Part shown: piece by piece, positions 16,170 to 27,152 of the stretch | Layout: every line of letters starts with the position of its first letter | How positions within the stretch are numbered: position 1 is the stretch's first letter | Source of the DNA: Blastocystis sp. Blastoise | Taxonomy: Eukaryota > Sar > Bigyra > Opalinata > Blastocystidae | NCBI GenBank assembly: GCA_039096225.1 | Contig: JBBPEB010000015.1 | Coordinates: 558,001 to 622,000 of the forward strand | Length of the DNA stretch: 64,000 bases | Direction of reading: 5' to 3' | Made by a program: the position numbers and the translations under genes | Notes under the pieces: model-generated | Told to the model about the DNA's origin: nothing | Database searches by the model: none | The model's input: the letters and a program-made list of their open reading frames with translations, nothing else

Positions 16170-16178
16170 ATAAAAAAC
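16170..16178. repeat. Target-site duplication, left copy (ATAAAAAAC)
   Basis: Nine bases directly abutting the left terminal inverted repeat. They are repeated exactly at 27144-27152 just outside the right one. A 9-bp duplication is the usual length for Mutator-like elements. Confidence 0.93.
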
Positions 16179-16883
16179 GAGAACTTGATTAACCTCGTCC
16201 CGTTTTTGTGTTTTATTTTTGGTCGTCCCGCGGGACGAGTGAGTCATAAAATGAACTTTTTTTTTACCAATAATAATTTACTCTTGTATTTTTCTTCTAA
16301 AAGAACTTCTAAAAATTTATCAAAGTCGTCCCATATATTATTCAACTTTTATATTATCTTAAATGATAGATTTTAATGTAAACACAGTATGTATGCTATT
16401 GTGATACTTGTATAAGACGACAGGAAATAAAATATAAACTTGTTTTTTGTCATTCTTAGTATATCACTCAGAATTCTGGGTATAAACTTTGTTTTGACAC
16501 TCTTATATAATATTAAATTATAAATAAAGGTACACTGAACTATTTTGAGCTTTTAATAAAAAAACGTAAACATTTCTACATTTCTTGTCTTGAAGTTGTA
16601 AATTAAGTGAGTCTATTTGTATTCAGTCAATTTCAGACTAGTAAAGTTATCACAATAAAATACTCAAAGCAAAAACACAATTTTAACAAATGTAGTGAAT
16701 TCTTTAAAATGGAGAGTATTTTCTTACAAAATAAATATAATTTTTACTATATTGACATAAATAAAGATTTATAATTAAAATAAAATAATAAACTATAAAA
16801 ATAAAAATTAACGACAAATAAAATATGAGAAAATAAATTGTTTTATTCTTGTGCTTTATTTTGTGTTTAGTCCATATTTATTT
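16179..16883 (+). repeat. Left terminal inverted repeat of MULE, 705 bp
   Basis: Matches the reverse complement of 26439-27143 from the outermost base (GAGAACTTGATTAACC) to TCCATATTTATTT with no indel and no substitution that I could find by eye. It contains the subterminal palindrome at 16223 and further TCGTCCC words at about 16194 and 16324, candidates for transposase binding. The transposase ATG lies 11 bp inside its inner edge, so the TIR probably acts as the promoter. Confidence 0.93.
16223..16238. promoter_or_regulatory. 16-bp perfect palindrome in left TIR
   Basis: TCGTCCCGCGGGACGA, self-complementary over all 16 bases and entirely GC-rich in its centre, sits 44 bp from the element's outer end. 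The same palindrome is at 27084-27099 at the same distance from the other end. Single TCGTCCC half-sites recur nearby. A dimeric transposase (or host factor) binding site is inferred. Confidence 0.6.
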
Positions 16884-16893
16884 TATTTTCTTT

Positions 16894-19800
16894 ATGAGTT
16901 CAGCAAAAGAAATAAAGCAAGTGGCCTTGGAGGATGTTGGACTGTGCTCCCACTACAACAGCCGTGAAGAGTTGCTGAAGAGCTATTCATTATATAGATC
17001 AATCTATCACTTTTGCGTAAGACAACGTGGTGGGCATACGCTAACATATGTGTGCTCAAACAGTGATTGCCCTTTTATTGTTAAATATACAAAAAATGAA
17101 AAAGGTTTTGAAGCACAATCGTACTGTTGTTCCCACAATCATAAAGGTATTATTATATAACTATTACTATTTGTTAACACTCTATAAAGAAAACTTAAAT
17201 CAGTCCTATTCAACAAAACTAGTATATGATGATGCAAGTATATAATACTATATATTATTATTGTTATTATGCTTGATTTATTATGTTTTAATTTTTAATT
17301 TACGTAAATGAAACTCGTTTATTTATATATACAGAAAATATTTTATTATTTTAAAATTATTATGATTATTATAAAATATTTAATTATTGATAGATGATAC
17401 TTGCTTAATAAAGAATACTTATTCAAAAACTGGCGTAACATATGGAGAATTTGAAAGGTGTTTCTATTCTTTATTTATAAAAGATCCATTTGGGTTATAC
17501 TCAAGATATAAAACAGAGGCCAAAAGTCACTTTCCAAATATAGAACCAGAAGTACTAGATCACTGGTTTCAAAAATTGTTTAATTCAATATATGGAACGA
17601 ATGAAGATGGTTATCTTATGCTTCCTGCTATGCTTTATTCTATCAAACAGTACGAAAATATTGATTATAAAATTTATGTTAACAAAAATGATAATAAATT
17701 ATTTAGATTAATTGTAGTATATCATTCTGTAATAGAAAAACTTTCAGAATTATATAATAATGAGCTATTCATAGATGCTTCACATAGTCACTCCAAAGAT
17801 AAGTATATTATATATGATATTATAGTTTTATCTTCTTATAATAAAAAATATGTTCTCGGATATATGGTAGATCTAGATGGTGAAGGAAAAAATAGTTGGA
17901 TTGATTTTTTTTCATTTTTAATAAGTCGTGGTATATATTTATAATTAATCTATATTATATGTTTAATTATTAATTTTTTCTTATTATTATATATTGTATA
18001 TATATATTTATAACATTATTTTATCTATTTATTGTTAATTAATATCTTAAATTCAATCAATAATCTTTAGAATATTTATTGCTTCTACATGTTATTATAT
18101 ATTTTATAATTAATTTGAAATTATTTTATTTTTATATATAATGCCTGATAAAAGCTATTTTTTTAAATATCATTGGATATAATCGTTCAGATTTCTTTTT
18201 CCTTAAGTATTGTATTACATTTTCATTTCTATTTGTTTACTAATAATATATATATAGAATTTATTTTATTTCATATCATTTTAATATTTGTTAGTTGAGT
18301 ATTGCTCTATTTTAATATTATTTTATTTTTTATATGGTTTTTTTATTTCATTGATTTTATAAAATTTATTTATTTCACGTTATTTACATATAATATGTTT
18401 CAATAATACATTATTTTATACATATACAATTATAAAATTTACTTATTGGAAGTGCTAAAAATTATGATTTAATCATAAAAATATATATAATTTTATCTAG
18501 TATTCATATATATATATGATCATTAATATATAGGTGTGGATGAAAATTCGAAACTTGTTATTCATTCAGATGGTTTGATGGGTTTATCGGATGCTATTGG
18601 TGAGTTATTTCACTTTTCAACAAATGTTATGTGCGTTTTTCATGCAAGGAATATCATGTATTCAAAAAAAACTATTAAAGAGTCTTCTGATATAAATAGA
18701 ATCTTTTTTCAGTATGCTTCAGCTAAAGATCTTATCTCTGCAAAAAAATATTTACAAGATGAAATTGAATACGTTAATCAACGTAATATAAATGATTCAA
18801 ATGCTAATCTCGTTAAGGATATTAACACTTTAAGTGAATATTTAGATTCATGCGATAAAAGGTTTTGCCGTTTTTTTCATAAAGGATTTACTGTTACCAT
18901 GCTTACAAATAATCCTTCTGAACAAATTCATGCTCAATGGTCAGAAATTGTTAGAAAATCTCCATTATGTTTATTTCCATTTTTCTTTCATATAACCAAT
19001 AGAAAAAATATGTTTGATAACGAGGAAGATTGTATTATAAAGAAAACTATACCTTATGTCTTTCAAAAAAAGGATCAATTATGCAAAGAAGGCGATTTCA
19101 TAATGAAAGGAGAAGGAATAAATGAAATTTATATTTCGAAAAATAATAATTCAATAATTTATACTATAAAATATATTCCAGCTGCTACCTTTTATTGTGA
19201 TTGTCAATTCTGCAAAACCGAAGTTATTTGTGAACATATGATATGGTTTATGAAAGTAAATAAAATAGAATTTGATTCTCTTCCTTACGATCTTGTTAGA
19301 AGATACTTCATTTTTTTGAATATAAAAACATGTAAAAACTGTCCATTTTACCTGTTTACCTCATTTATTTATAAACCCCAATTTAGAGACTCTATATTGA
19401 TTGATACAACCCAAAATTATGGATATAGACAATTTAGGATTATTGATTCAAATGATATTGTTTTTAACAAAGAAAGTATGCTTATATATATTCTTAAAGT
19501 TAGTTTATTCATATATAGCGTTCCAGAATGAATTGAAGAATTTATATAAACAAATATTTTGTGTATATTTAATTATTATTATTTTTATATTTAATAGGCT
19601 GAGTGTGTATCAATCAATGAAATGATTTATCCACTAGACTACTCCATGTATTTAGAATTAAAAAATTATTTTGAAAAACATAATCCGTATCGTGAAGGTA
19701 TATATTTGTTAGTCATAATAAACACTGAACTTATTTTAGACATTATTTCAGAGAAAAGTTGTGAAAAGCGTGAAGAATCAATAACATTGAAGTATACAAA

Positions 19801-21234
19801 TTTTAAAGATGGTTACTCATATACTGCACCTTCTTCCTTGGCTTTTTGTTCGTTAGATGATTATATGATAAATAATACTGTATATTATATATCTAATATT
19901 ATATAATATCGTTTAAATAAAACTTTCTATTTTATTTAGGTATCACTTAAAATAATAAATATTAAGACTGGGGATATATTTTTAAAATCAATAAAACGCT
20001 CTAATACAATTAAAGAACTCAAGGAAGAATTAAATGTAAATTATGAATTATGTGTGTTTTTATTAATGTTATATATAGATAATATTTAAATTACCAGATG
20101 ATGTAACCCTGTTCATATTTTCTTCAGGTGGTTTTCTGGTTAAAGAATCTGAATCAATCAAAAGCATAATAGGTTATGACTCCATTTCAACTCTCAACTT
20201 ATATATATGTTTAGTATGATTTATTATATATTATATATCTATTTATATATAGGTACAATTAAGATGTCAATATAATAGTGAAACACTATTTTGCCATTGT
20301 ACATGTAAATAAATATTTTATTATATATATATATATATATTTTATATAGTTCCACTATGGAATATATTTGGAAAAGAACAAAAACTTGCATGTGGATCAG
20401 TTCATTTCGACTGTATATTGAATTAATTTTTGTTTTCAAACAATAAATCTATTGAATTATCACTTTTGTATATAGATACATGTGATCTACATCAATTTCT
20501 AATGTCATACAAAAACTATAAAGTTCGTATCGACATTATTTCTTTAGAATGTATGTTATATTTTCATCAATTAGTTATTTATTCTTTCAAAATGATGTTT
20601 ATAGACACAAAACAGACTATATGTATTGAATATGACTCACGACCATGCAATTCTAGAGTATTTTATAATATGAAAAAGCTGCAAATAAGCTGTATATATA
20701 TTTATTATTATTAAATTATATTTATTTTGTATAGTGGGGGAACTGGATCGAACAGCTACAAAATATTTACAACAACTTTTAGAATCCTCCTTTTTTGTTT
20801 GTGATAATATTGTTATAACAGGTATTTATTTTATTATTATATATTATTTATATAGGTGAAAAAATTCCTGAATGGGTACGTACATCTCTTCAATACGTAT
20901 CAGGCATAAAAAATATTAATATAAATTGGGACTTATCATGTATTATTTTATTTTTAATATATAATATCTCCATATTTATAGTACACACAATATTTGACTA
21001 TGAAATATTACCTAATATAAATGAAAATTCTGTGGATGGTATATATATATATATATTTTCATTATGTGCTTTGTAAAATATATTCTAATTACTATAGTAA
21101 ATCTTCAGACTCCAATGTCTATACAGAACAGCTCTCCAATATCATTAATAAGTGTTCAGTCAATAAATTCTATTATGGAGAATAAATGCATTTATGACCC
21201 AATTAAAGGTATGTGTTATGATTGTATTGATTAA
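16894..21234 (+). CDS. MULE transposase with WRKY/GCM1-type finger, DDE core, SWIM finger and C-terminal ubiquitin-like domain
   Basis: Start ATG 16894, just inside the left TIR. Exons: 16894-17146, 17394-17930, 18534-19475, 19519-19562, 19598-19697, 19752-19879, 19940-20035, 20079-20213, then at least six more to TAA at 21232-21234. An N-terminal Cys/His finger (CSNSDC ... CCSHNH) is followed by the MULE core with acidic triad D212 (LFIDASHS), D276 (VIHSDGLMG, then CVFHARN) and E393 (NNPSEQIHAQW). A SWIM finger CDCQFCKTEVICEH begins at about 485. Residues 669-745 form a ubiquitin-like fold: VSLKIINIKTGDIFLKSI, NTIKELKEELN, LPDDVTLFIFSSGGFLV, ESIKSIIGYDSISTLNLYI. Downstream exons up to YDPIKGMCYDCID stay in frame but are unrecognised. 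The 603-bp intron 2 is long for this locus. Whether transposase and UBL are one polypeptide rests on predicted splicing around 19475-19598. Confidence 0.82.
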
Positions 21235-21246
21235 AAAACGATTTAG

Positions 21247-21254
<8 letters not shown>

Positions 21255-21304
<50 letters not shown>
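21255..21304. repeat. (TA)n tract inside MULE
   Basis: About 25 TA dinucleotides directly after the transposase stop codon, followed at once by the hairpin at 21305. Similar TA tracts occur at 26150-26212 and 26299-26345 near the right TIR. Confidence 0.9.
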
Positions 21305-21306
<2 letters not shown>

Positions 21307-21341
21307 AGCGTTTCACGACTGGCTACGCCAGCCTACGCTTG
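21305..21341. other. GC-rich nested hairpin downstream of transposase
   Basis: Outer arms CAAGCGT (21305-21311) and ACGCTTG (21335-21341) pair perfectly. Inside them CTGGC (21319-21323) and GCCAG (21327-21331) form a second stem with a three-base loop. This 37-base structure is strikingly GC-rich for the window and lies 71 bp after the transposase stop. It might be a 3'-end RNA structure or the remnant of a foldback element. Confidence 0.6.
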
Positions 21342-24230
21342 AATCTAAATAAACATAAAAAAATAATTTGTAAAAAGACTATCTTTTCATTATATAAAAA
21401 TTATTTATTTCAAATTTTGTTTTGTTTTATTAATATTATCAATAATCGTTTCATATTTTATTAATATTATCAATAATTGTTTCATAAAAAGAAAATTAAA
21501 AAATAAAAATTAACTATATATAAAATAAAGATTACATTCTATTTCATTAGTAAATATATTTAAATACTTAAAAAACTATAGTATTGTTTATAAAATAGAG
21601 TTTACACAACAAATAAGTTATTATAAAAAAACTCTAAAAAACTATAACATTTTGAAATACATATACTCACTTTTATTAAAACGAATTTTGTGCTAATATA
21701 CATATATATTTGATTTATTATTTTTATTTATAAAGAATAACTTGAATTTCATTTATTTAAAGTCACAATTACAAAAAATGAGTTCTTTTGAAAGACAAAA
21801 AACATTCTTTAAACAATAATAGTTTTGTATTTAGTGACAAAAAAACGTATTATACGGTTTTAGAAGCAATTAAAATCATTTTACCCATTTTAACATTCCT
21901 ATCAAGCAGTCAACCATGTTTAATTAAACTAATTTTTAATATTTTATGTTCTATAATAAGTCTATTTATTATTTTAATAAAAGGTAACTTGAATCTCTTG
22001 ACTTAACTATTGTAATTCTAAAAGAATAATTTTTTAAACAACTTAAAATATTTATTTATTGTAGATTTTAATATAAAACAATTTAAAAACACTCTATACA
22101 TACTTATTACAACCATATTTAAAAAATAGACTCATTTTAACATTTTGGTCAAACACACAACCACCTTTATTTCAAACAATTCTTTTATTATTATAAACAT
22201 TAAACACTCTAATACTCATTTTTACAGAAAGTGTATTGAATCTCTTCACTTAAGACAGTCAAACAGACAATTCAAAATTATTTTACCCTTTAAACTCATT
22301 ATAAAGTGATAATATTTATAGAATTGCTTTGATATGTGATTTAGGACACATTGAACTACTTTTTACAAAATTATGAGTCAACATGTGCATATACTCATAT
22401 ACTCGTCAACTCCACTTTTGACTATTTTTTTGAGAAATGCAATACATATGTAGTCTAGTTTTCAAATATGTAAAAATTAATTGTCAAATATGAATTTGAT
22501 TTGTCAACTTTCAGAAAATTTTTAGAAAAAAGATTTTTCAATTTTCAGTTTTTTAACATGTTATACTATTGACTCTACTAAACTCATTTCTTAATTAATT
22601 TTAAATATTAAAATTTATATTATTAATATGTTTTATTCTCTATATTTATTTGTTATAATTATATAAAATAATTAAATATTGACTGAGAAATTAATGTTAT
22701 AAAGTATACCCTTTTTTCAAAAAAAATAATTTTTATGTTTTGCATATATAATTTTTTATCTCAAAAGTTATTTTATATTTTGATAATATTTTTCTAAATA
22801 TATAAACTATATGTTATCTAGTTTATAAATAAGTTTTATTTATTTTTTAAAAATTAATATTGATGGAGAAATTGTCAAAACAAACTATAGTATCAAAAAT
22901 GTTTTCTTTTTTTTAAACGACTTATTTCACTAATTAAAGATTTTTAAAAACTAATTTTCTTATTTAAAGCTTATTTATGACATTTCCAAATCATAAAGAC
23001 TGACAACTGACTTTTTAAAACAAACATTGTCAGTATCAGTTCAACATGTTGTCTTAACTTTTGTAAATAAGTCACATACAGTGTCTATGAGTGATTCTAA
23101 ACACTAATCTAAACGTTTTAAGAGTTTATTGAGTTAACATTGTCTGGTGATCTGTTGTCAAAGTCTTTTAAAAACAAAATAAAATAATAAAATATGTTTA
23201 TTTTGGTATTTAGTGATTCAATATAGAGTCAAATATCAAATATATTTATAAATGATGAAATTATTGACAACAAACAAATGAAAAAATTTTAACAAAAATT
23301 TCGAACGTCATTTTTTTATTGAGTTTAACTATTGTCTCCTGTGACTTCATTTTTTAATATTTTAAAAAAATGGCAAAAACGGATGACATTTAGGTCGTCC
23401 TACATCTAAATAAGCTTTAACCTTTTTATTTTATAAAATATTGACTGAGAACTGATGATAACAAAATATACCATTTTTAGAAAAATTTCATTTTTATGTT
23501 TTTCATATAAATTAACATATCTCGGTCAATATTAAATATTAAACAAAAATATAAAAAACGGATGACATCTAGGTTGTCTTGTTTACAAATATGTTTTTAT
23601 TTTTATTATATGTTGAATATTGACTGAGATCTGATGATAACAAAATTGGGTATCAAAGATGAAAAATTTTTATAAACAAATATTTTCTTATTAAAAGATA
23701 TAATTAAAATATAAAACATATTTATGACGGATATAGAGTTAACTAAATACATTAAAGCTCAAATAAGTTTATTAAGAAGGAATGTGTTGGATATCAGTTT
23801 GTCTTTTGTCGTTATTTAAAAGATTTATTGTTGTTTCAGAGTAGTTAAGGTCATTGTCATGACAACTGAAACCACTTTAGAGTTTATAGTTAGTAATGTG
23901 TGTATTGATATGTTGTCAAGTTGTAAATATAAACAAATCTACCCGTCAAAACTATTTATAAGACCAACCCGTCAATAAAAGTTAATTTTATAAAAATAAA
24001 TATAGAGTATGTTAATAGATATAGGAAAAATAAGAAAACAATAAAAAATGAAAAACGAAAAATAAGTGTTTTTATAAAAATGAAAAATATTGGATAAAAA
24101 AAAAATAATCCAATAATTTTGGTTAAAATTTTGTGCGAAAATGGTTTTTTGCGTTTTTTAGCCAGAAATTTAGAATTTTCGAAAAATTTTTTTAACAGTC
24201 ATTTTCAGAATTGTGTTCCGGATTTTATGA
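21342..24230. other. Non-coding interior of MULE
   Basis: Nearly 3 kb of A/T-rich sequence between the two element genes without a convincing exon. It holds a 31-bp direct duplication (TTTTATTAATATTATCAATA..., about 21425-21486), a pair of similar blocks at about 21880-22010 and 22135-22260, and the 180-bp repeats listed separately. The short frame 21788-22006 is a hydrophobic run with no family match. The first exon of the protease gene may be hidden near the right end. Confidence 0.6.
22670..23700. repeat. Diverged ~180-bp repeats in MULE interior
   Basis: Related units carry an AATATTGA(C/T)(T/G)GAGAA-like start at about 22677, 22858, 23438 and 23618, that is two pairs 180 bp apart. An ACGGATGACAT(T/C)TAGGT word in the second half recurs at about 23379 and 23558, again 180 bp apart. 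The second word continues into GTCGTCC, resembling the TIR half-site. An inverted copy of the start word is near 23523. Divergence is high, so the array is older than the TIRs' identity suggests. Confidence 0.55.
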
Positions 24231-24319
24231 TGTAATTTTTATTTTATAAAAGTTAATAACAAAGTCAATAATAGTGAAAGTGTGTGAGACACCGTACGCT
24301 ACATGAACTAAATTAAGGA

Positions 24320-26149
24320 TATTAATATATATAGATATTAATGACAAAGAGAAACTTGACATAACTACAATCCATGAGAATACAAAGTGTATACTAGATG
24401 AAAAACAGAAAACATGTCTTCTTAGTCCTTCTGACCTTTTACCATTTTCAGATGATGATATTTCAACTATATCCAGTAAAGAATGTATATTTACATGTAA
24501 TATCATTAATCAAGAAGAAACTGATGAAGAGACAGAAAAATATGAAGATAAGCTTTATGAAAAAGCTAAAGTACATAATTATATTTATATTATAAATTAT
24601 ATATTATATTTATCTGCTTATCAAATTGGTATTTTTATATTTCCTGTAGTTTCTAGTTATTTCCTATCGTTTTATATATTATATTTGTGTATAAAAACTA
24701 TTTATTACTATATATATTATATTTTTATACTATAGAAAATTCTTAAAGAGGATTCGATTTCAGTACGAAGATCAAGTGATTTATATCTAAATGATTTTAT
24801 TATTGATACATATATTAATTATTTATGGCTGGCATTTAAATTATCAAGTCAATCTAAAGATTCTATTAATACCATTTATATAATTGATTATTTTAAAAGA
24901 ATTATAATCGATAGGCAACTGGCTAATAATCAGTCAAATGTATGTTTATAGTTTATATATTATTATTATTTATAGTACTCTAGCCTTATTAATAAAATCA
25001 TTTTGAGTAATACAAATCTAATAATAATACCATACTGTCAGTATACATTATGTTTACAAATTAATTCATTTTTTTAGTTATAACCATTGGATTCTCTATA
25101 CAGTGAGTACTGTAGCTATTAATAATATTGCTAATGGTATATATTTATTATTAAAAAATGTTTAATTGCTATTTCTTTGTTTATTTCGTTTTTAATATTT
25201 TTATCTTTGCTATATTTAGAGTTGAAAAAAAATAAACTAAGAAATTCAATAGATGTATGTAATTATATATAAAAAATTATTATTTATAAAGCTGGAAATC
25301 AGGTGCTATAACTCAATGGAACGAATTACTATTAATTATAACTGTGCAATAATTAAGTATTATTTATTTCTTATTATATTACTAATCTATTTATAGTTTT
25401 GTAAATGCTTTATTTCGAGAAATTATCAAAATGAGATGCCATTATACAGATGATGAATGTAAAGACCTTTTAAAGATATTAAATACGCAAATAAATGTTT
25501 ATGTATTATTTTTATTTTATATTACTATTTATTTAGGAATCTCCTCAACAACACAACTCATATGACTGTGGTTGCTATTTACTAATGAATACGAAATATA
25601 TTATTGAAAATTACTCAATTTGGATAAATAATCCTTCTATTAGTTATACCTTTAGCAGTAGTGTAATAAGAAGTGTTATACTAGAAAAGATGGCATTAAT
25701 GTCACGTATTCCTGGATATAACAGTGTAAAACGATGTATGTAATATTATTTATATATATTAATAAATATATAGTTTTTACTGATATTGAATCCTCAATAA
25801 ATTATATTAAAGAAAACACTCATTATGATACTATAGTAAGTGACAGGGAATATAATACTAGACAAAAATCGTTTATAGAATTTATACAATTAAATAAGTA
25901 TTTTTTAATATATGTAATTCTTTATACTCTATCTTTATTTAGCAAGATCTTCCATGATAATTTAGGCTTAACATTTAAGAATCTAAAAAACAAGCAGCAG
26001 CTTCCTATTCTTAAAAAAAAAATAAAAAAACAAAAATTGTATTATATTAATAAAGCACTTTTAATTCTGGATCCAAATCGTAAACGAACAAAACATGCGA
26101 AGAGATTTGTTGCTCGTAAAGTATCCAGAAAAAAGAATCTAACCAATTC

Positions 26150-26216
<67 letters not shown>

Positions 26217-26295
26217 TATTAAATTGTTTACTATATGATATATTATGTTTATATATATATAGTTATATTCAATTATTTTTTGCATAATTATATTC

Positions 26296-26346
<51 letters not shown>

Positions 26347-26440
26347 TATATATATATACTTTCATAATATTATTTGAATAATTATACACATTATATATAG
26401 TCGTAAAGCTTATAAGGATAAACTAAATACCACAGAATAA
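24320..26440 (+). CDS. Ulp1/SENP-like (C48) cysteine protease of the MULE
   Basis: Multi-exon gene between the non-coding interior and the right TIR; its stop TAA (26438-26440) overlaps the first base of the TIR. It reads DINDKEKLDITTIHENTK, an acidic leader, then the C48 pattern: SDLYLNDFIIDTYINYLW (substrate-binding LNDxII), LIIIPYCHYNHWILYTV with catalytic His (CAT 25085), LEIRCYNSMERI with Asn (AAC 25310) where the family usually has Asp, and ESPQQHNSYDCGCYLL with oxyanion Gln and nucleophile Cys (TGT 25567). A lysine/arginine-rich C-terminus (KRTKHAKRFVARKVSRKK) resembles a nuclear signal. Family known role: cleavage of SUMO/Ub-like precursors or conjugates. The first exon and start codon were not found; the left limit is approximate. 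Confidence 0.78.
26150..26345. repeat. (TA)n tracts in last protease intron
   Basis: Two long TA runs (26150-26212 and about 26299-26345) sit in the intron between the exon ending KKNLTNS and the final exon RKAYKDKLNTTE. Translation through the first gives an artificial Tyr-Ile repeat. Confidence 0.85.
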
Positions 26441-27143
26441 ATAAATATGGACTAAACACAAAATAAAGCACAAGAATAAAACAATTTATTTTCTCATATT
26501 TTATTTGTCGTTAATTTTTATTTTTATAGTTTATTATTTTATTTTAATTATAAATCTTTATTTATGTCAATATAGTAAAAATTATATTTATTTTGTAAGA
26601 AAATACTCTCCATTTTAAAGAATTCACTACATTTGTTAAAATTGTGTTTTTGCTTTGAGTATTTTATTGTGATAACTTTACTAGTCTGAAATTGACTGAA
26701 TACAAATAGACTCACTTAATTTACAACTTCAAGACAAGAAATGTAGAAATGTTTACGTTTTTTTATTAAAAGCTCAAAATAGTTCAGTGTACCTTTATTT
26801 ATAATTTAATATTATATAAGAGTGTCAAAACAAAGTTTATACCCAGAATTCTGAGTGATATACTAAGAATGACAAAAAACAAGTTTATATTTTATTTCCT
26901 GTCGTCTTATACAAGTATCACAATAGCATACATACTGTGTTTACATTAAAATCTATCATTTAAGATAATATAAAAGTTGAATAATATATGGGACGACTTT
27001 GATAAATTTTTAGAAGTTCTTTTAGAAGAAAAATACAAGAGTAAATTATTATTGGTAAAAAAAAAGTTCATTTTATGACTCACTCGTCCCGCGGGACGAC
27101 CAAAAATAAAACACAAAAACGGGACGAGGTTAATCAAGTTCTC
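26439..27143 (-). repeat. Right terminal inverted repeat of MULE, 705 bp
   Basis: Inverted copy of 16179-16883, same length and no difference found by eye. It ends at the outer edge with CAAGTTCTC, directly followed by the target duplication. It contains the palindrome at 27084-27099. Confidence 0.93.
27084..27099. promoter_or_regulatory. 16-bp perfect palindrome in right TIR
   Basis: Same TCGTCCCGCGGGACGA palindrome as at 16223-16238, 44 bp from the right outer end. The symmetric placement supports a role in end recognition. Confidence 0.6.
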
Positions 27144-27152
27144 ATAAAAAAC
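27144..27152. repeat. Target-site duplication, right copy (ATAAAAAAC)
   Basis: Identical to 16170-16178, directly after the right TIR. The pair marks the insertion event that placed the MULE between the TOG and MFS genes. Confidence 0.93.

Follow-up and report, generated by a model that had tools for sequence, protein, structure and literature searches.

Here, we report a Mutator-like element (MULE) of Blastocystis sp. Blastoise, a gut protist (opalinate stramenopile; taxid 3128533), in which a Mutator transposase, a probable ubiquitin-like (UBL) domain, and a C48-family protease are encoded in one chain. The element occupies positions 16179 to 27143 of a 64,000-nucleotide stretch of genomic DNA (C4:558001-622000; hereafter the window, to which positions without a contig name refer). 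One gene of 25 exons (16894 to 26440, plus strand) encodes 1,405 residues in the order transposase, UBL, conserved region, linker, C48 protease, and basic tail. This combination had been picked out from the sequence in an earlier annotation (the original prediction), and it is confirmed as real and is stronger than first stated. The explanation that we favor, and consider fairly probable, is an autonomous MULE whose sole gene yields one polypeptide with a tethered isopeptidase of the ubiquitin/SUMO/NEDD8 type and an internal, nonconjugatable UBL that has a docking or regulatory role.

The element is bounded by 705-bp terminal inverted repeats (TIRs; left, 16179 to 16883, plus strand; right, 26439 to 27143, minus strand) that are identical, with 0 mismatches, and is flanked by the 9-bp target site duplication (TSD) ATAAAAAAC (left copy, 16170 to 16178; right copy, 27144 to 27152), the long TIRs and ~9-bp TSD of a MULE. 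The Blastocystis sp. Blastoise genome (33.3 Mb, 34 contigs) was searched for further copies, which were assigned to lineage A (the window element and copies on contigs C33 and C26), lineage or family B (C2 and C4), lineage C (C5), and lineage D (C4, near 1.737 Mb). The lineage A copy at C33:752170-760065 (7,896 bp) is ~98% identical to the window element and has the TSD AAAAGATAA; that at C26:976576-1012685 is >99% identical, with the TSD TAAAAGAAT. The family B copies on C2 and C4 (C4:64500-74400) have 9-bp TSDs, AAAAAATTC and CACATTTGA, and all five TSDs differ; none was established for the C and D copies. With the Mutator-type transposase, the identical TIRs and the TSD uphold the assignment to a young MULE. 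The description of the element as intact holds for its reading frame, but a ~3-kb high-copy repeat is nested in a (TA)n tract of intron 14 (approximately 21305 to 24318). Counting itself, this repeat has at least 53 matches across the genome, of which 43 are long and 10 span ~50 to 60 bases; the number is a lower bound because 40 of 160 candidates were scored. The repeat also lies inside the lineage C element, beside its UBL exon, and the TIRs of family B are ~5 kb (a 5,147-column match in the C4 copy), tandem-repeat-like inside, and very long for a DNA transposon.

Window exons were joined by hand via GT-AG introns, and all 25 fall in one open frame. The gene spans the element from TIR to TIR; 10 nucleotides separate the left TIR from the ATG, and the stop codon (26438 to 26440) reaches 2 nucleotides into the right TIR at its inner end. 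Because a handmade splice model in AT-rich DNA can mislead, further tests of the gene model were made. Family B encodes a collinear protein of 1,404 residues along the full length of the window protein, and 17 of the 24 window introns are matched in family B by an intron of equal phase whose position is identical or no more than 3 alignment columns away. The two B copies have 18 and 12 exons and encode the identical 1,404-residue protein (0 amino acid differences). From the UBL to C48 (1.9 to 2.2 kb), every exon block is 100% identical between them, and they differ only by ten precise GT-AG introns, two absent from one copy and eight from the other, in copy-specific blocks. All ten fall at intron positions of the window gene and therefore appear to be ancestral introns that have since been lost, presumably when spliced cDNA recombined with the element. 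Window exons 1 to 15 were placed before B was read and exons 16 to 25 with B in view, so that 6 of the 10 intron matches are fully independent. The splice sites are borne out by these intron differences between copies; there is one frame in lineages A and B and the same order in C.

The original prediction had the protease separate from the transposase, and in the window the two halves do stand 3.1 kb apart, as might be expected if a transposase-UBL gene were followed by a second gene, for the protease, driven from a promoter of its own between 21.2 and 24.3 kb. However, the gap is the nested repeat, which is missing at intron 14 in both the C33 and C26 copies; the equivalent family B intron is only 87 nucleotides, which leaves little space for a second promoter; and the flanking introns are conserved in phase and position. 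The NCBI model of the C33 copy (WA158_008130, hypothetical protein) also crosses the junction as one gene that begins with the transposase, takes in the first UBL exon, and continues into C48. It has a different start, lacks several exons (UBL exon 6 and the exon of the protease His among them), and omits the linker stretch that contains a C33 stop codon. The two-gene reading, scarcely credible on this evidence, was rejected on the nested-repeat gap, the single 25-exon frame, the conserved introns, and the 87-nucleotide B intron.

Exons 1 to 3 (16894 to 17146, 17394 to 17930, and 18534 to 19498; plus strand) encode the Mutator transposase, assigned from Pfam, NCBIfam, and its residues. In the window protein, Pfam Transposase_mut matched at 3.4e-9, above its cutoff; Pfam MULE (5e-4) and NCBIfam IS256 (3.8e-17) each matched below the cutoff of the model. 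Both PF00872 (best, 2.6e-9) and PF10551 (below its cutoff in A) were found in three of three lineages scanned (A, B, and C). We take D212, D276, and E393 to be the DDE residues and the CxC..CxH motif (19196 to 19237, plus strand) to be SWIM-like; all lie in frame, in agreement with the DDE/SWIM transposase proposed earlier. No integrase was matched by the window protein in Pfam or NCBIfam, where the types were Mutator, MULE, ZSWIM, and IS256. The genome also holds other MULE families, with 28 MULE-domain places, 15 of them with open frames of at least 635 residues; in 8 of the 28 (~3.2 kb scanned at each), no UBL match was better than E 2.4.

Past the transposase, the same frame continues through a spacer (exon 4, 19598 to 19879) into the UBL, of which exon 5 (19940 to 20035) encodes the first 32 residues and exon 6 (20079 to 20213) the remaining 45, all on the plus strand. 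The domain comprises residues 680 to 756 of the full model (669 to 745 in the original prediction). For the fold prediction, 70 piece-length mixes of the alignment gave 0 clean ones; among up to 360 tried then, 12 had no misplaced residue, and the first of these 12 was used. Alignments A3, A4, A5, and A7, each with exon pieces out of place, were not used for folding. With the lineages correctly aligned, AlphaFold predicted a ubiquitin topology for the lineage B domain (predicted local distance difference test [pLDDT], 68), with the strand and helix order of a beta-grasp, and the model matched UBLs, ubiquitin and SUMO among them. Of the 50 structure matches listed, 28 bore the name ubiquitin, SUMO, UBL, UBX, Atg8, or ubiquitin-fold. 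The sole Pfam match of the window UBL was ubiquitin, in register and below the cutoff. A UBL profile scored 7.6 bits against human ubiquitin (reached by 0 of 200 shuffles), 1.4 bits against NEDD8 (7 of 200), and 1.3 bits against SUMO1 (12 of 200). Neither sequence search of the PDB gave a significant match: the best of 18 rows with the four-lineage UBL profile was chain OT3 (E 0.081), and 11 of the 18 were ubiquitin, ubiquitin variants, or ubiquilins; the best of 7 rows with the window UBL was SpaO (0.11), and 2 of the 7 were ubiquilin 3. At the sequence level, the UBL is remote from ubiquitin and its match is weak. Taken with the model, a ubiquitin-like fold is probably joined to the transposase frame, much as had been proposed.

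The UBL is followed by a conserved region (exons 7 to 13, 20253 to 21038) that is 29% identical to B, with pieces recognizable in C and D, and by a linker whose start is exon 14 (21098 to 21208) and whose acidic part is exon 15 (24335 to 24570). The C48 (Ulp1/SENP-type) protease (exons 16 to 22, 24736 to 25735) precedes the basic tail (exons 23 to 25, 25774 to 26440), all again on the plus strand. The DPN.KRT.HAKRF motif of the tail is closely matched in B, similar in C, and weaker in D and in a copy on contig C23. Pfam Peptidase_C48 matched the window protein at 6.3e-9, above the curated cutoff, which sustains the family assigned in the original prediction. Scores were 36.4 bits for A and 53.6 bits for B (cutoff, 20.7), where the B sequence scanned was an early hand join with one exon junction different from the later model. 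The catalytic set of C48 enzymes is a His-Asp-Cys triad with an oxyanion Gln. The corresponding residues are H, D, Q, and C in B and C and, in the window lineage, H, Asn, Q, and C (His1133 at 25085, Asn1168 at 25310, QQ 1220-1221 from 25546, and Cys1227 at 25567). The best PDB match of the lineage B C48 domain was SENP8 (E 0.0059), too weak to indicate NEDD8 or SUMO specificity.

Lineages A, B, and C share the same domain order at 41 to 46% transposase identity (family B is ~43% identical to the window copy in transposase exon 3). In lineage C, nested DNA interrupts the series of transposase, UBL, post-UBL pieces, C48, and tail. C48 was found at six such places (three in A, two in B, and one in C), and the UBL is present at all six, exon 6 being the split one in C26; this count leaves out two fragments on C15 and a remnant on C23. 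The former (C15:525669-525836 and C15:681702-681869) are 81% identical to part of the family B protease, and the latter (C23:182300-186300) is a C48 and basic tail of a further lineage with no transposase match in the 4 kb examined. Lineage D was found once (C4:1736185-1741067, minus strand). At this locus, the transposase and UBL are accompanied by post-UBL pieces and a basic tail related to that of the other lineages, but neither C48 nor TIRs were found. No in-frame join was obtained for the exon that follows its UBL; D is thus perhaps a decayed copy, or else a domesticated one. The original prediction had raised the question of whether copies always keep both UBL and protease: A, B, and C do, but D keeps the UBL with no C48 found. 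Each of three protein searches for homologues outside this genome, which need shared 5-residue words and can miss distant relatives, returned only WA158_008130, the C33 copy; two of the three scored only the best 7,997 and 7,999 candidates. The combination is therefore known from one species.

The window and C33 copies differ by 17 synonymous and 20 nonsynonymous changes on 820 and 3,395 sites, respectively (ratio of nonsynonymous to synonymous rates [dN/dS], 0.28; Fisher P = 2e-4). Synonymous/nonsynonymous changes were 9/4 in the transposase, 0/0 in the spacer, 5/8 after the UBL, 2/7 in the linker, 1/0 in C48, and 0/0 in the tail. Net purifying selection over the whole gene and over the transposase is clear, and constraint on C48 and the tail is suggestive. 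MULEs are known to capture pieces of host genes (PMC13317346, in the part available), and the UBL and protease might accordingly be Pack-MULE-like cargo with no part in transposition. Against this, the order is the same in A, B, and C at their level of transposase divergence, the gene is under net purifying selection, and C48 and the tail show 0 amino acid changes between the two A copies; we regard captured cargo as very improbable.

C48 enzymes mature ubiquitin-like precursors, and the UBL and C48 share one chain, as would suit the self-processing advanced in the original prediction, in which C48 cuts after the UBL and frees a transposase-UBL or a free UBL modifier. However, no Gly-Gly (GG) follows the UBL in lineage A or B. 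The residues there are LVQLRC, LVQAPF, and LVQLPF in A to C, in which LVQ is conserved without a GG-type site and which do not resemble a conserved site of cleavage, and the C-terminal GG of a conjugatable (type I) modifier is absent; lineage D, moreover, retains a UBL where no C48 was found. The missing GG makes release of a UBL modifier unlikely, and self-processing was not borne out; we consider it improbable. Lacking GG in A and B and occurring in D with no detected protease, the domain behaves as an embedded UBL and not as a precursor.

An embedded UBL could also be no more than a generic adaptor with a beta-grasp fold, comparable to FERM F0 or PB1, for dimerization or protein binding, unrelated to ubiquitin biology, beside an independent C48. 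Of the 50 structure matches listed, 12 are FERM proteins (kindlin, talin, 4.1-type, and IDOL), with scores as high as those of ubiquitin, and the weak sequence similarity to ubiquitin and the UBL of lineage D point the same way. The presence of the UBL in all six copies with C48, its sole Pfam match, and the 28 ubiquitin-type names among the structure matches argue otherwise, and we see the generic adaptor as possible but rather unlikely.

In the explanation that we favor, the transposase would deliver the predicted isopeptidase, of the ubiquitin/SUMO/NEDD8 type, both to the complex that it forms and to the DNA being cut. Acting at the donor or target site, the tethered protease may strip modifications from the transposase or from host proteins of repair, silencing, or turnover that are present. 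The embedded UBL would not be a modifier released by the protease; it may dock onto host ubiquitin/SUMO machinery (the host genome encodes ubiquitin), in keeping with the other idea of the original prediction, an interplay with that system, or regulate the tethered C48 in cis. USP11 and USP7 are deubiquitinases with an internal, nonconjugated UBL in the chain with a ubiquitin/UBL protease. They offer a possible working likeness to the window protein, and the USP11 UBL is among the 50 structure matches listed; they differ in that USP is not a C48 catalytic domain and that they are host enzymes without a transposase.

Several observations weigh against this explanation. The fold model is of the lineage B domain and has moderate confidence, and an initial AF2 run on a 3-row alignment gave a pLDDT of only 52.8. 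PF00240 matched in one of four lineages (E 0.0092; 16.2 bits versus a cutoff of 25.4), and the UBL profile against ubiquitins gave E 0.0065 at an HH probability of 5.9%, with 1 of 300 shuffles equally high. Between the two A copies, the UBL alone has 0 synonymous changes and 1 nonsynonymous change. In the predicted protease of the window lineage, Asn stands at the usual position of the catalytic Asp (25310 to 25312), as it also does in the C33 copy. A stop codon interrupts the latter at residue 997 (1 of the 20 nonsynonymous differences between it and the window element), and in the C26 copy, ~28 kb of other DNA splits the gene close to where exon 6 begins. In lineage C, 18 kb separate the transposase from C48, and its status as one element rests on order and orientation. 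Both C15 fragments of C48, outside the UBL count, lie ~2.5 kb from a stop-containing MULE domain.

KI-MULEs and ULP-MULEs are said to have their primary reports in Hoen 2006 and van Leeuwen 2007. The accessible parts of two papers describe KI-MULE/KIU (VANDAL VANC-Ulp1) and the ULP-MULEs of melon, rice, and grapevine as MULEs with an Ulp1-type protease of unknown function; KI-MULEs are non-TIR elements in which KIU is one of three genes and ULP is reverse to mudrA (PMC2528002, PMC13317346). The window element, with long TIRs, one gene, C48 in the transposase chain, and a UBL, is not a KI-MULE. In the Ginger1 DNA transposons (Bao, Kapitonov, and Jurka, 2010), a Gypsy-integrase-type transposase is fused to a C-terminal Ulp1 (C48) or OTU domain, and the authors proposed a role for ubiquitin/SUMO pathways in transposition (PMC2836005, available text). 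Like Ginger1, the window element has a C-terminal Ulp1 domain in the transposase chain; unlike it, its transposase is of the Mutator type and is accompanied by a UBL, which the available text does not mention for Ginger1 (PMC2836005). According to the same text, Mutator elements from hydra, lancelet, maize, and others contain Ulp1 domains, which a figure legend places in "Mutator TPases," and no UBL is mentioned for them (PMC2836005); the Ulp1 domain is as in the window element, and a Mutator transposase-Ulp1 fusion may already be known. Helitrons with VTD/OTU deubiquitinases resemble the window element in that a transposon protein has a built-in deubiquitinase-type domain; they differ in being rolling-circle elements with another protease family and, in the available part of the source, no mention of a UBL partner (PMC9741609). 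In the open-access literature searched (most subscription papers lie outside it), none of the papers listed describes a transposase that has both a UBL and Ulp1. By word search, the main text of PMC6446971 contains none of the words protease, ubiquitin, peptidase, and Blastocystis, and PMC13359780 none of the words Ulp1, ubiquitin, SUMO, protease, and peptidase. Transposase-Ulp1 fusions are known; the added UBL is new among the literature searched, and the claim that the combination is undescribed stands within it.

Ulp1-type proteases recur in unrelated transposons, with a role called unknown or speculative in the portions of the literature available. With protease, UBL, and transposase in one protein of conserved order, the protease and its possible partner can be studied together in a single purified molecule. 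Natural contrasts exist among the lineages (Asn versus Asp in the active site; a UBL with versus without a detectable protease), and the two B copies, with the same protein but ten introns apart, provide a clear-cut example of introns lost recently and precisely within a DNA transposon. More tentatively, and with a low probability in our view, the embedded UBL might be a pseudosubstrate that blocks the ubiquitin site of C48 until the transposase binds the element ends, or a lure for host SUMO/ubiquitin enzymes whose products the protease removes. If so, transposition would be switched by a modification cycle owned by the element, a self-contained ubiquitin-like control unit.

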